Origin: Mycobacteriales bacterium
GTDB taxonomy: Bacteria; Actinomycetota; Actinomycetes; Mycobacteriales; CADCTP01
Reading direction: 5' to 3'
Length of the DNA: 32,291 nt
Assembly (NCBI GenBank): GCA_035995165.1
Contig: DASYKU010000004.1
Coordinates: 1-32,291 of the forward strand
Shown: positions 28,059-32,291 of the stretch, piece after piece
How positions within the stretch are numbered: the stretch's first letter is position 1
Layout of the letters: every line of letters begins with the position of its first letter
Made by a program: the position numbers and the translations under genes
Notes under the pieces: model-generated
What the model was told of the DNA's origin: nothing
Seen by the model: only the letters and a program-made list of their open reading frames with translations
Database searches by the model: none

Positions 28059-28077
28059 TCCCTGATCTTTCTCCTGA

Positions 28078-28107
28078 CGACGCCCGGCCCTTCCAGGCCG
28101 GGCGTCG
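28078..28107. terminator. 12-bp GC-rich terminator hairpin after DUF3040
   Basis: CGACGCCCGGCC (28078-28089) pairs exactly with GGCCGGGCGTCG (28096-28107), loop CTTCCA, 20 bases after the DUF3040 stop. Confidence 0.8.
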
Positions 28108-28190
28108 CCCATTCCCCGCCCACTCCCGTCTCCCTGCGAGACACGCTGGCTGCACCGGCTTCCGCCGCCCCGGCGCCGGCCCCCCCGCCG

Positions 28191-28268
28191 TGCGGGTGCC
28201 TTGGGCCGGGTGTCGGCTGTGGTGCGGGTGCCTTGGGCCGGGCGTCGGCTGTGGTGCGGGTGCTGCAG
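28191..28268. repeat. 32-bp direct repeat
   Basis: Copies begin at 28191 and 28223 (starting TGCGGGTGCCTTGGGCCGGG), with a third partial copy at 28255. The unit length is not a multiple of three, so the frame of the overlapping minus-strand gene changes at each copy, scrambling its C-terminus. Confidence 0.85.
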
Positions 28269-28883
28269 GTCACGGTGACTGGCCAGGTCCCGGGGGTCGT
28301 GCGGGTGCCGACGAGCCGGCGCCACGCGATGGCGCCGGCGGATGACGCGGTCTTCGGGTCGAGGCCCTGGGCTGTGGATGGCCGGATTTGTAGTCGACCT
28401 CGATGGAGCAGTCTGCGCCGGATGTAGTGCGGGCGGCCGCGATGGCGACGTTCCCCTGGCCGGTTGGCGGCAGGCTGACGACCGTGACCGTGAACGGCGG
28501 CGCCGGCCGTGGAATCCGGGGACGAGGCGTCGGCGCGGGTAGCCGGGTCCGGGTCGGCTTTCTCGGGGTGGCTGTGACGGTTGGTCGCGGTGGCGGCGGT
28601 GTGGCCGTCGACGGAGGCGGCGGTACCGACGTCGGCGTTCTTGTCCTGGGGAACGGCTGTTGAGCTCGACGGAGCCGCGATCGGCGGGTCGGTTCTCGTG
28701 GGAGGGGAGTCGGAGTCGAGGACTGAGGCGGCCAGGCCGCTGCCGGCACCGAGGGGTCACCAATCCGGCCAGGACTGCGCGGACGGCCGCCGCGCGGCTG
28801 GCAAGCCGAAAGCCCGGAAGGGATCCTCGGCGGAGCCCGACCACGCCAATCCCGACGATCGTCAGTCCGGCCGCGATGAGCAC
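28262..28883 (-). pseudogene. Frameshifted membrane-anchored protein with Pro/Thr-rich linker
   Basis: On the minus strand an N-terminal membrane helix (VLIAAGLTIVGIGVVGLRR, start about 28883) is followed by a Pro/Thr/Ser-rich stretch. A C-terminal domain then reads TVTVVSLPPTGQGNVAIAAA, ADCSIEVDYKSG, and STAQGLDPKTASSAGAIAW then TRTTPGTWPVTVTC. The YKSG...TPGTWPVTVTC domain is known from secreted actinobacterial proteins, but the two halves lie in different frames. One C appears missing at about 28380, where GGCC-ATCC is found instead of an expected GGCCCATCC. Codon usage suggests one or two further shifts near 28510 and 28770. The domain is recognisable, so this is a recent pseudogene or a sequencing error. 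Confidence 0.68.
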
Positions 28884-29617
28884 CCTCCTACGGAGGAAGG
28901 CCTGCCGGAGCGCCAGTTCACCGACGTAAGGCTCAGGTCTTTCCTTCCCCTCAAGCTGAGCGACACGCCATGGACGCAGGCGACGCAGCTGTCGTCGACC
29001 GATCTCCCTCGACGGGTCCCCGTGGCCCGCGCCCAGTGCGGCATGATCGGTCGTTCGGGCGAGGCAGGGTGTACGCATGGCTCGGGTCCCTGGTGGTGCG
29101 CGTCGGGCGAGGACTCAGGGCCACTGCTGCAGCACACGAGCGGCCGCGCCCGTCGTTGCCTATGGCGTCGCGAAGGGGTCGTGCTCCGAGAGGATCTTGT
29201 CCAGACGGGCCTGTCAGCGGTCCGAATGCGTGAGTAGAACTGCTCGTCCACAGCAGACCGATGACAGTCCGGGCCCCGCCCGCTGCGCGGTGGGAGAGTG
29301 CGTTTGCGTACCCAAGTCCTACCCCGCCTCGGTCATATCGGGTCATGCACCCCGCGCGCTCGGCTTACGGCATGGTGCGCGGACGGCGTCAGGATCGAAT
29401 ATGGGACACCACACACTCCCGGCCTGGCGGGCACCCGGTGACGGGCGCCCGGACCGGTGGGCACCAGTGGGCAGCACCGGCTGAACACCGGTAGGTCCTC
29501 TCCCATCAGTTGCCCATCGGTTGCCCACAGCGGTGGGCGATGTTCTGCAGTGCCTGCCCGTTCCTGTCGGCGAGGCGTCCTGCAGAGGGGGAACCGTGAT
29601 CCGTCGGGCGAGTCGCC
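28884..29617. other. Low-coding intergenic stretch
   Basis: Somewhat lower in GC than the surrounding genes. Open frames on both strands give products rich in Arg, Ser and Cys without recognisable domains or ribosome binding sites. The only structures seen are short repeats of GTGGGC/GCCCAC, the best being GCCCAC-AGCG-GTGGGC at 29523-29538. The promoter for the 29618 gene is presumably here but I could not place it. Confidence 0.55.
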
Positions 29618-30256
29618 ATGCGTAGCGTCTTTGTCGGTACGCCGGCGTTCCTGGGCCGGATCGACGGCGAGACCCGCTGTGCGTTCTGGGCTGAGGAGCC
29701 GGTCGACCATGACTTCGACCCGCTGCTGCTCATCCCGGTCGACTTCGCACTCACCCCGTCGGCGGCGGCGGCGAAGGACATCTCCTGGGCCGACGTGCAA
29801 GTCGACGACTGCTTCACCGGGCCGAATGGTGCGGTGAGCGGTTCCACCCTCGGGCCGGGCTGGCCGGAGTTGCAGCTCGGCGGTGCGGTGTACCTGGAGT
29901 CCGGATTCCGTGAGTCGTTGCCTGCCGGGCTGCGCCCCGCCTGCCCCCCGGCCGGGATGAGCGCGCAGCCGTACGAGTGCATGTCGGTCGTCTACTGGCC
30001 GGACATCGACGATCCCCGCGCCGGCAAGCGTTATGCCGGTCACTGCGCGGAGATCCTGGAGGAGCGGGGCTCACTGGCGCACGTGGCGGTCCACCCACCC
30101 GGCAAGTCGGAGCAGCCGGACGTACGGCCGGTGACGATGTGGATCGACCTCGCATCGTCCGAGCAGTGTGACGCCGGCGTCGAGAGTCTCACCACGATAG
30201 GCACCGGGGCCGCGCCCAAGCGCGGAGCGCTCTTCTTGATCAGCGGCCAGCTGTGA
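29618..30256 (+). CDS. Hypothetical protein upstream of the small-peptide array
   Basis: The 212-residue protein starts MRSVFVGTPAFLGRIDGETR and has no signal peptide, membrane helix or family I recognise. It contains several cysteines, in VDDCFTG, RPACPPAG, YECMSVV and GHCAEIL, and an acidic N-terminal half. Codon usage is normal for this genome, so it is likely real. It ends 44 bases before the first A peptide with no terminator between, so it probably belongs to the same transcription unit. The Shine-Dalgarno is weak. Function unknown. Confidence 0.65.
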   Translation: MRSVFVGTPAFLGRIDGETRCAFWAEEPVDHDFDPLLLIPVDFALTPSAAAAKDISWADVQVDDCFTGPNGAVSGSTLGPGWPELQLGGAVYLESGFRESLPAGLRPACPPAGMSAQPYECMSVVYWPDIDDPRAGKRYAGHCAEILEERGSLAHVAVHPPGKSEQPDVRPVTMWIDLASSEQCDAGVESLTTIGTGAAPKRGALFLISGQL

Positions 30257-30300
30257 CGGGCCCGGCCCGCCAGCACAGCCCCACGGACATAAGGACCATC

Positions 30301-30588
30301 ATGGACAGCACTCCTGCGCGCCGAGCCGCCGCGGCCGACCGGCCCGGCCGGCTCCGGGCGGCCGCGCTTCTCACCGCCGTCCCGATCGCCTTCACCGTCG
30401 GCGCGGCCGTCGCAACACCGTTCGGCTCCCTCGGATCAGCCCGGCCGCTCGACAGCAGTCCACACCTGACCGCGCAGACCGGTACAGCCGCGGACTGCCA
30501 CGGAACCAGGCCACGGGCCAGGCTCGCCGCCGAGGTGACCGTCTCCACGGTCGGCGCACTGAAGTGGCCCGGATGCGCGGGCGACTAG
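30301..30588 (+). CDS. Family A small peptide, copy 1
   Basis: The 95-residue peptide has a charged N-terminus (MDSTPARRAAAADRPGRLR) and one hydrophobic segment (about 20-41, AALLTAVPIAFTVGAAVA). The exported or C-terminal part has two Cys (66 in ADCHG, 92 in WPGC), with LAAEVTVSTVGALKWP between. The pattern suggests a membrane-anchored or cleaved secreted peptide with a possible disulfide. AAGGA precedes the ATG. By hand alignment about 82 of 95 residues match copy 3. No known family recognised. Confidence 0.75.
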   Translation: MDSTPARRAAAADRPGRLRAAALLTAVPIAFTVGAAVATPFGSLGSARPLDSSPHLTAQTGTAADCHGTRPRARLAAEVTVSTVGALKWPGCAGD

Positions 30589-30686
30589 TAGCTCCTCCCG
30601 AAGCTGGCCAACCCCGTCAACAGCGGTCGTGGCGCTGCCGACTCCGGTCATCCAAGCACCCGATCCTCCGGACCGAAGGAGCCACC

Positions 30687-30866
30687 ATGGAACCCGAACT
30701 CGATCGTCCCGCCTCCGCCGATGCGCCCGACACGCCGCCGCCCCCCGAGACCCGGTCGTCACATCGGCGGCGATTCGAGAGGGCCTTCAACGCGTCGGCG
30801 TTGCTCAGCACCACCGCGGTGCTCGTCGCGATCGACCCCAAGATCCCGCCGTTCAGAGCCGACTGA
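30687..30866 (+). CDS. Family B small peptide, copy 1
   Basis: The 59-residue peptide has an acidic, Pro-rich, poorly conserved N-terminal half (residues 1-30) and a C-terminal part nearly identical to the other B copy: AFN, then ALLSTTAVLVAIDPK, ending PPFRAD. The hydrophobic stretch could insert in or lie on a membrane. The variable-leader plus conserved-tail layout recalls peptide precursors, which is inference only. GAAGGAG lies 5 bases before the ATG. No known family recognised. Confidence 0.72.
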   Translation: MEPELDRPASADAPDTPPPPETRSSHRRRFERAFNASALLSTTAVLVAIDPKIPPFRAD

Positions 30867-30898
30867 CGCCAGCACAGCCCGACCGACAAGGACCATCG

Positions 30899-31165
30899 AT
30901 GGACAGAACTCCTCCGCGGCCGAGTCGGGCCCGGGCGACCGCACTTCTCACCGCCGTCCCGGTCGCGTTCGCGGTCGGCGCGGTGGTCGCATCACCGTTC
31001 GGCGCGCACGGATCAGCCGGGCGGCTCGACGGCACTCCTCGCCTGTCGGCCCAGACCAGCATGTTCGACGACTGCCACGGAACCAGGCCACAGGCCAGGC
31101 TCGCCGCCGAGGTGACCGTCTCCACGGTCGGCGCACTGAAGTGGCCCCTCTGCGGGGGCGACTAG
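30899..31165 (+). CDS. Family A small peptide, copy 2
   Basis: The 88-residue peptide lacks about seven residues in the charged N-terminus compared with copies 1 and 3 (MDRTPPRPSRARATALLTAV). It keeps the hydrophobic segment and the C-terminal DCHGTRPQARLAAEVTVS and LKWPLCGGD with both Cys. It is the most divergent A copy, so it is not merely a very recent duplicate. Its start lies 32 bases after the B1 stop. Confidence 0.75.
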   Translation: MDRTPPRPSRARATALLTAVPVAFAVGAVVASPFGAHGSAGRLDGTPRLSAQTSMFDDCHGTRPQARLAAEVTVSTVGALKWPLCGGD

Positions 31166-31250
31166 CTCGTTCTGGCGGCGGTCGGCCGACGACCAGACCG
31201 GCGTAGCCAACCGTCCGCCGTACCCCATCTGCTCTATCGAAGGAGCCACC

Positions 31251-31430
31251 GTGGACGCCGACCTCGATCATCCCGGCCCCGCCGAGGCGTCGGACCTGCC
31301 CGCGCCGACCAGCATCCGGCCGTCGCCTCTGGTGCGTCTGAGGACGGCCTTCAACACGGCCGCGTTACTCAGCACCACCGCGGTGCTCGTCGCGATCGAC
31401 CCGAAGAACCCGCCGTTCAGAGCCGACTGA
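31251..31430 (+). CDS. Family B small peptide, copy 2
   Basis: The 59-residue peptide from GTG 31251 has a changed N-terminal half (MDADLDHPGPAEASDLPAP) but the same C-terminal AFN, ALLSTTAVLVAIDPK and PPFRAD as copy 1. The identical length and the shift of variation to the N-terminus support selection on the tail. The sequence CGAAGGAGCCACC just before the start matches that before copy 1. It is missed by simple ATG-only searches because it starts with GTG. Confidence 0.72.
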   Translation: MDADLDHPGPAEASDLPAPTSIRPSPLVRLRTAFNTAALLSTTAVLVAIDPKNPPFRAD

Positions 31431-31461
31431 CCGCCCGCACAAGCCCACGGAAAGGACCATC

Positions 31462-31749
31462 ATGGACAGCACTACGGCCCGCCGAGCCGCCGCGGCCGAC
31501 CGGCTCGGCCGGCTCCGGGCGGCCGCGCTTCTCACCGCCGTCCCGATCGCCTTCACCGTCGGCGCGGCCGTCGCAACACCATTCGGCGCGCTCGGATCAG
31601 CCCGGCCTCTCGACAGCGGCCCACACCTGACGGCCCAGACCAGCATGTTCGCGGACTGCCACGGAGCGAGGCCCCAGGCAACGCTCGCCGCCGAGGTGAC
31701 CGTCTCAGCGGTCGGCTCGCTGAAGTGGCCGGATTGTGCCGGGGACTAA
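31462..31749 (+). CDS. Family A small peptide, copy 3
   Basis: The 95-residue copy is close to copy 1, with the same hydrophobic segment, Cys66 in ADCHG and Cys92 in WPDC. Its TAA lies two bases before the ATG of the caspase-like gene, so that gene is probably translationally coupled to it. Differences from copy 1 cluster around the first Cys and in the C-terminal third. Confidence 0.75.
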   Translation: MDSTTARRAAAADRLGRLRAAALLTAVPIAFTVGAAVATPFGALGSARPLDSGPHLTAQTSMFADCHGARPQATLAAEVTVSAVGSLKWPDCAGD

Positions 31750-31751
31750 AG

Positions 31752-32291
31752 ATGATGACGGCTCCGCCATTTCGGTACGCACGGCTGGTGGACACGACGA
31801 TGTCGTCGCTCAACGTCGCCTCGCCGGACTGCGCGGAGCCGTTCTACCGCGGTCGGCTCGCGCGCTGCAGGAACCTGCAGCGCGCGGGTTCGCTCGCCGA
31901 ACTCCGGGAGATCCTCGACCGTCGCGTCGCCGACGTCGCCGACGTCGCCGACGTCGCCGCCTCGCCGGCGACGCTGGACCTCATCGGCCACTCGACCCGC
32001 GACCACCATCTGCTGCGCCTCGGCGCCACACCCATCGACATGCTCGACCGGCAGGTGGCGCGCTTCTTCTCGGCGCTGGCCGAGGACCAGCTCCTGCCGC
32101 GTCAGCAGATCGTCGCGGTGCGCCTGCTCGGCTGCGAGACCGCGGTGACGGACGGCGGTCAACGAACGCTGCGCATGCTCGCGCACACACTCAACCTGCC
32201 CGTCTACGGGACGTCCGTTCGGCTGCTCAAGAGCCATTCCAACGCCGACGGCTTCAATCCGGCTTTCTCCCACATCCTGGTCGAGGCCTCG
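31752..32291 (+). CDS. Caspase-like (clan CD / CHAT-type) peptidase-like protein, 3' end outside window
   Basis: Open from ATG 31752 (or 31755) to the window end, 180 residues. The pattern is that of CHAT/DUF4347-type caspase-like folds: a hydrophobic strand ending in His (TLDLIGHST, His80), a loop LLRLGATPID, then a strand ending in Gly-Cys (VAVRLLGCETA, Cys128), followed by LPVYGTSVRL. The His-Cys dyad spacing (48 residues) fits. The residue after His is Ser rather than the more common Gly. An in-frame VADVADVADV segment (59-69) precedes the domain. It begins two bases after the last A peptide. Peptidase activity and the peptides as substrates are inference. Confidence 0.68.
   Translation, partial: MMTAPPFRYARLVDTTMSSLNVASPDCAEPFYRGRLARCRNLQRAGSLAELREILDRRVADVADVADVAASPATLDLIGHSTRDHHLLRLGATPIDMLDRQVARFFSALAEDQLLPRQQIVAVRLLGCETAVTDGGQRTLRMLAHTLNLPVYGTSVRLLKSHSNADGFNPAFSHILVEAS
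31926..31961 (+). repeat. 9-bp in-frame repeats in the caspase-like gene
   Basis: GTCGCCGAC occurs three times in a row (31926, 31935, 31944), then a variant at 31953, encoding Val-Ala-Asp repeats before the catalytic domain. Length may vary between strains. Confidence 0.85.

Follow-up and report, generated by a model that had tools for sequence, protein, structure and literature searches.

The unit described here lies at the end of a 32,291 base contig that was analysed whole (hereafter the window), and comprises an array of five small peptide genes, A1-B1-A2-B2-A3, within the last 2 kb (30301-31749), a protease gene we call CASP, and a gene for an upstream partner, UP. UP belongs to the conserved unit, which thus starts upstream of A1, at 29618. 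All features are on the forward strand:

29618-30256, + strand: UP, 212 aa, an undescribed family, partner in every protease locus searched
30268-30300, + strand: leader with a ribosome-binding-site-like sequence before A1, with related copies at 30867-30898 and 31432-31461 (repeat family D3)
30301-30588, + strand: peptide A1, 95 aa, with basic N-terminus, hydrophobic segment, Cys pair and C-terminal tag KWPGCAGD
30687-30866, + strand: peptide B1, 59 aa, with variable acidic N-terminus, basic patch, short hydrophobic segment and tag KIPPFRAD
30899-31165, + strand: peptide A2, 88 aa, C-terminal tag KWPLCGGD
31251-31430, + strand: peptide B2, 59 aa, GTG start, C-terminal tag KNPPFRAD
31462-31749, + strand: peptide A3, 95 aa, C-terminal tag KWPDCAGD
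31752-32291 (contig end), + strand: CASP, 180 aa read, predicted clan CD cysteine protease, His80 in LDLIGHST and Cys128 in RLLGCETA

The first-pass annotation had reported an alternating peptide array on one strand with conserved ribosome-binding-site-like leaders, and the array is real at these positions; the distance it gave from the last peptide to the protease is likewise exact, with 2 bases between the A3 stop codon and the CASP ATG. It missed the upstream partner, the C-terminal tag shared by all the peptides and the kinship of A and B, and the observation is larger than first noted: the unit spans UP to CASP and recurs in other phyla. Upstream of UP, about 1.5 kb separating it from a DUF3040 gene (28060-29600) holds no obvious conserved gene.

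The A copies are 72-86% identical in pairwise comparison and the B copies 59-61%, and repeats of ~300 and ~210 bases span the A and B genes. A Shine-Dalgarno-like stretch, AAGGACCATC, is conserved before the A genes, and another, GAAGGAGCCACC, before the B genes. Codon usage compared over six frames clearly supports UP and CASP and weakly to moderately supports the peptides: the frame given above is best for every peptide, with a weak margin for A and a near tie between B1 and one antisense frame. The ratio of non-synonymous to synonymous change, which the first-pass annotation had proposed as a check, is uneven among copies (dN/dS of 0.28 for A1-A3, 0.42 for A2-A3, 0.85 for A1-A2 and 1.2 for B1-B2), and some pairs stand near or above 1. 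Because divergence within the window is insufficient by itself, we take the peptides as genes on the strength of their conservation in other phyla. A whole-genome search found no further copy of A in its own genome.

A degenerate DNA pattern around the catalytic Cys of CASP, L[LIV]GCxTAx8[LIVM]xxLx7[VI]xG, was scanned over the contigs of 85,000 genomes and returned 26 stretches, 14 of which hold 15 clear CASP homologues, while about 10 are chance matches. The closest homologue is 62% identical (E 2e-55, Paractinoplanes tereljensis), followed by those of Virgisporangium aliadipatigenens (61%), a Pyrinomonadaceae metagenome-assembled genome (MAG) and Nocardia altamirensis (both 56%), and by homologues from MAGs of Kofleriaceae and other Myxococcota/Deltaproteobacteria (41-52% in the portion that aligns). 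As a set on a single strand, UP, tagged peptides and CASP recur in unrelated bacteria from soil, namely Actinobacteria, Acidobacteriota and members of Myxococcota/Deltaproteobacteria, answering the question of homologues and co-occurrence that the first-pass annotation had set for the peptides and the protease. UP lies upstream in most loci, with the tagged peptides between it and a CASP gene that follows; the tagged peptides of the Kofleriaceae locus come before UP.

The unit is rare. UP occurs in 4 of 379 Myxococcota genomes, 3 of which were known already, and A in none of 299 relatives, the window's own genome apart. Single-protein searches found nothing real in 399 genomes of the order and 396 of the phylum: weak CASP matches (in genomes G199, G290, G374, G733 and others) are chance frames that mostly overlap ordinary genes, as is a weak A match (in G056) a chance frame. 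A genome of the same genus (G001) contains neither CASP nor A, and its dinB neighbourhood is not syntenic. Protein searches of plasmids, phages and viral contigs found none of these proteins, exact 8-mer back-translations of CASP had no match in the 85,000-genome contigs or in viral contigs, and catalytic-motif patterns derived from probe alignments with artificial variant rows found nothing in viral contigs.

Across 10 loci, every one of 26 small peptides ends K-x-P-x-x-x-[G/A/S/R]-[D/E]-COOH, with K at -8, P at -6 and an acid at -1 in 26/26 and G at -2 in 20/26. Conversely, among 3113 open reading frames of 30-150 aa in all loci retrieved (some overlapping), each one ending KxPxxx[GAS][DE] is one of these peptides. 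The final residue is uniformly D or uniformly E within a locus, never mixed (8 of 200,000 label shuffles), a regularity due in part to paralogy. In the window the code reads KWPxC[AG]GD in A and KxPPFRAD in B. The peptides also share an architecture of variable N-terminus, basic patch, single hydrophobic stretch and C-terminal octapeptide; the stretch has a mean hydropathy (18 residues) of about 1.3-2.6 in all peptides but one and is preceded by basic residues in nearly all 26, suggesting that the peptides are membrane-anchored.

Two peptide families had been recognised in the first-pass annotation, and both are real; judged by sequence, though, they are variants of a single kind of tagged peptide, because architecture and octapeptide are common to both. 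The two conserved Cys it noted in A hold within the window and are not general, being present in Paractinoplanes and absent in Virgisporangium; it is the octapeptide that is general. The window and Paractinoplanes have in common a B-A pair ahead of CASP, and Virgisporangium encodes a single peptide product that is B-like in its internal code and A-like where it ends. The A-B-A-B-A array therefore looks like tandem growth of a B-A pair. Two tagged peptides are also joined in one frame, in the manner of a small polyprotein, in Nocardia (locus L047, 1502-1813, - strand), where the first code, KLPPFTGD, is internal and followed by EMSG, and an ATG with a ribosome-binding-site-like sequence overlaps the joint.

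UP has no relative in Pfam, NCBIfam or the PDB. It was found in 13 of 13 CASP-bearing genomes searched, and the window copy is 70-73% identical to its Paractinoplanes and Pyrinomonadaceae homologues. An alignment of 15 members contains four invariant polar residues (D63, D64, E120 and R138). Between pairs of the 15 loci compared, the identity of UP is correlated with that of CASP (r = 0.76, 0 of 20,000 permutations), and this also holds within form 1, the arrangement with small peptides, taken separately (r = 0.83, 13 of 20,000 permutations).

Homologues run on for ~5-10 residues past the point where the contig end cuts CASP short. The last 300 bases have no match on another contig, and a candidate for the other half of the gene (L008, on C75) was ruled out. 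The dipeptides GH (79-80) and GC (127-128) are invariant in the 16 sequences of the family alignment. An AlphaFold2 model computed from 17 sequences reached a pLDDT of 89.4 and a pTM of 0.85 (pLDDT was only 38 from one sequence), and in this model the His and Cys motifs each follow directly on a hydrophobic strand (E73-78 and E120-126). Its best-placed PDB fold matches are nearly all clan CD enzymes: Tce1 (PDB 9qpe, Z 10.4), SAVED-CHAT (7.8) and C80 domains (7.0-7.6), then TPR-CHAT, C11, GPI8, legumain, separase and caspase-3. All but Tce1 fall below Z 8, and Foldseek gives weak E-values, 1.2e-3 at best; the assignment therefore relies on fold, motif and family consistency together, by which CASP is predicted with high confidence to be a clan CD cysteine protease of caspase fold, as the 'caspase-like' label of the first-pass annotation had anticipated. 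Unrelated folds in the match lists (aminotransferases, receiver domains) scored lower and were not taken as relatives, and a family's absence from these lists is not counted against it.

Profile comparisons place CASP outside C14, C80 and CHAT. Caspase family C14 (PF00656) has no profile match in the window's genome or for CASP, Peptidase C80 (PF11713) scores CASP at 12.1 bits, short of its 23.8-bit gathering score (E = 0.24), and CHAT (PF12770) matches 0 of 16 family members at E up to 0.1. The Pfam profile of DUF4347 (PF14252) matches 3 of the 16 (best E = 0.037), and a profile-profile alignment brings the catalytic His and the GC dipeptide of the two into register (P = 0.0012, probability 19%). 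A different fold for CASP was rejected on the basis of this DUF4347 comparison, the AlphaFold2 model and the fold matches. The invariant His/Cys pair suggests proteolytic activity, and CASP, which has no signal peptide, would be cytosolic. Small proteins with WGHGKWG and FRTCET motifs at two further Myxococcota loci (L091 and L093) score as DUF4347 and are possibly another small clan CD family.

A second form of the unit occurs in several Myxococcota/Deltaproteobacteria, in which a GAF-sigma54-activator gene, UP and CASP stand together without small peptides. Here CASP has a C-terminal extension that brings it to about 300 aa in all, against about 160-185 aa for the single small domain otherwise, and K-x-P-x-x-x-G lies within the last 30 residues of UP in 9/9. 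Three of these UP proteins carry the code at the very C-terminus (KRPPGFGE, KIPRGMGQ, KLPIGHGF); in most, further residues follow it. Of 1158 open reading frames of at least 150 aa in the loci retrieved, 30 have the pattern close to the C-terminus, these UP genes and their duplicate loci included. Two of the terminal codes belong to diverged proteins: a very diverged UP ending KIPRGMGQ, whose next gene encodes a 324-aa CASP-like protein with a code-like stretch, NPKVPRDDA, after the protease domain (the pair in L074, 1231-2990), and a UP-like protein ending GPKLPIGHGF (L075, 1333-2091, - strand). Genes resembling FGE-sulfatase adjoin two myxobacterial copies (L033, 3-938, by Pfam match; L074, 2955-3308, by eye).

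Because the code is found either on a membrane peptide or on UP, we read it as a recognition element. The three parts would form one module: small membrane-anchored peptides acting as carriers that display a fixed C-terminal code, UP as a conserved partner that bears the code itself in the myxobacterial form, and CASP, which would dock through the code on the tagged carriers, whether membrane peptides or UP, and would probably clip them, releasing a C-terminal peptide or switching UP. That the code is a CASP recognition tag, in a peptide-processing or cell-fate switch, is the simplest account of the two forms together, and we consider it to have a little under an even chance of being right. 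The fuller statement, in which a new family of caspase-fold proteases reads this C-terminal tag on membrane-anchored peptides or on UP depending on the host, we hold more tentatively. Overall the module would be a switch in peptide processing or cell fate, comparable in logic to the FxSxx-COOH/RxD modules and with a caspase-fold enzyme.

Recognition, cleavage and biological role are our suggestions from these patterns, as the secretion, toxin and cell-death roles raised in the first-pass annotation are conjectural, and some observations pull against our reading. If a peptide inserts as the positive-inside rule predicts, its tag would lie outside, away from a cytosolic CASP, and in form 2 the code ends in E, Q or F or more residues come after the tag. 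Cleavage after the acid is unlikely as a form-1 event because D/E is already terminal and a cut would release nothing; release may be possible where the code is internal, as in the Nocardia KLPPFTGD and in most form-2 UP proteins. UP, instead of CASP, could be the tag reader.

Two other explanations of the module seem to us improbable without being negligible. In the first, the locus would be a RiPP-like cluster in which UP modifies the C-terminal code as core peptide and CASP matures it, the product being a secreted signal or antimicrobial. A short conserved C-terminal code on fast-diverging, multi-copy precursors and the invariant polar residues of UP (D63, D64, E120, R138) would suit such a cluster, as would the fusion of the code to UP in form 2: borosin precursors are fused to their enzyme, and a form-2 UP with its own C-terminal code would resemble them. 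However, UP falls in no enzyme family, the scanned neighbours include no gene recognisable as a known RiPP enzyme, transporter or radical-SAM protein, a hydrophobic segment stands ahead of the code in every precursor, and a code near-invariant between phyla would be unusual for a diversifying product.

The second, which we likewise judge unlikely, casts the hydrophobic peptides as membrane toxins, or as anchors held by, or restraining, CASP, with infection or stress sensed via UP freeing protease or peptides and stopping growth (abortive infection, programmed cell death); the D/E-ended tag would sit in the active site like a product. A caspase-fold protease beside small, hydrophobic peptides is in keeping with this, and so are a rare and patchy distribution, as for conflict systems, and the multicellular habit of several hosts (actinomycetes, myxobacteria), a habit discussed for conflict systems in general (PMC7159879). 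The neighbours give a hint of conflict biology, in two loci only. Immediately downstream of the acidobacterial copy, on the opposite strand, is a TPR-CHAT gene (L056, 9-2069, + strand), so that two clan CD enzymes adjoin; the Paractinoplanes copy stands between genes for an nSTAND1 protein and for a 1169-aa protein that matches superfamily 1 helicase-type AAA (L034, 7314-8000 and 1599-5105). Against this explanation, the peptides are absent from form 2, the plasmid, phage and viral-contig searches came back empty, and no defence-system model of PADLOC-DB matches CASP, UP, A or B.

Less probable again is a role in conjugation or anchoring, with the acidic C-terminal code joined to another molecule and CASP acting as transpeptidase or deconjugase. 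Pup, with a C-terminus of -GGE or -GGQ, is conjugated through its C-terminal Glu, and GPI-anchored proteins are joined by the clan CD transamidase GPI8. Codes ending -GGD, -AGD, -VGE and -SGGE recall the Pup ending, one form-2 code ends in Q, and GPI-T and legumain are among the fold matches of CASP. Yet only 1 of the 26 peptides ends GGE, the module has neither a PafA-like gene nor a partner that resembles a ligase or uses ATP, UP falls in no known family, and clan CD transpeptidases require residues past the scissile bond, of which the small peptides have none. Finally, the notion that ordinary duplicated small open reading frames without joint function happen to lie beside an unrelated protease-like gene, for which the uneven dN/dS and the weak coding signal of A might speak, is already contradicted by the invariant C-terminal code and by peptides that recur beside UP and CASP in three phyla, and we give it almost no weight.

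What can be put forward is that three nameless families (UP, the tagged peptides and a clan CD branch) make one conserved unit in three phyla, and that the constancy of the code yields exact, testable predictions. Should the tag reading be true, bacterial peptide processing or programmed cell death would gain a caspase-fold switch guided by a tag, a bacterial tag-and-protease switch of undescribed kind, and there would be a small substrate or ligand set for studying a bacterial caspase-fold enzyme. As the first-pass annotation had supposed of the layout, searches of open-access PMC found no description of this unit, although one in a subscription journal or in different words is possible, and the system appears new.

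Compared with known systems, CASP resembles the clan CD proteases (caspases, CHAT/TPR-CHAT, C80, C11, legumain, GPI8) in predicted fold, in how the His and Cys motifs are ordered and spaced and in the strand-GH and strand-GC signatures; it differs in that no curated family model matches it above the cut-off and in having partners and peptides of its own. The strong DUF4347 matches in this analysis come from long open frames of about 700-3100 codons, whereas CASP falls below the cut-off. The closest solved fold, Tce1, aligns over 146 residues at 20% identity, and the His-Cys spacing is 48 in CASP, 54 in Tce1 and 50 in Tce2. Tce1 and Tce2, H3-T6SS effectors of Pseudomonas aeruginosa that carry a His/Cys dyad and are putatively cysteine proteases (PMC13323088), differ from CASP in being loaded onto the T6SS and in having no described UP or tagged peptide array. 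Craspase (type III-E CRISPR, TPR-CHAT) and the bacterial gasdermin-protease systems are alike in using a caspase-fold protease as output or switch of a multi-gene module, but no CRISPR effector or gasdermin match occurs in this one.

Closest in logic among described systems are the FxSxx-COOH, RxD and acidic peptide-processing modules of multicellular bacteria, which combine fast-evolving precursors that end in a conserved C-terminal motif with a peptidase (PMC7159879). What the present unit shares with the FxSxx-COOH systems is a peptidase gene next to genes for small precursors that diverge rapidly and end in a conserved motif, and its occurrence in actinobacteria of multicellular habit. The peptides do not carry the FxSxx, RxD or four-acidic motifs, save that the two window B peptides also end RxD, and the zincin peptidase and radical SAM partner are missing. 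Those systems employ a zincin metallopeptidase, often with radical SAM, beside VMAP or FtsH systems, whereas the unit described here has a caspase-fold protease, UP, the KxPxxxG[DE] code and hydrophobic segments.
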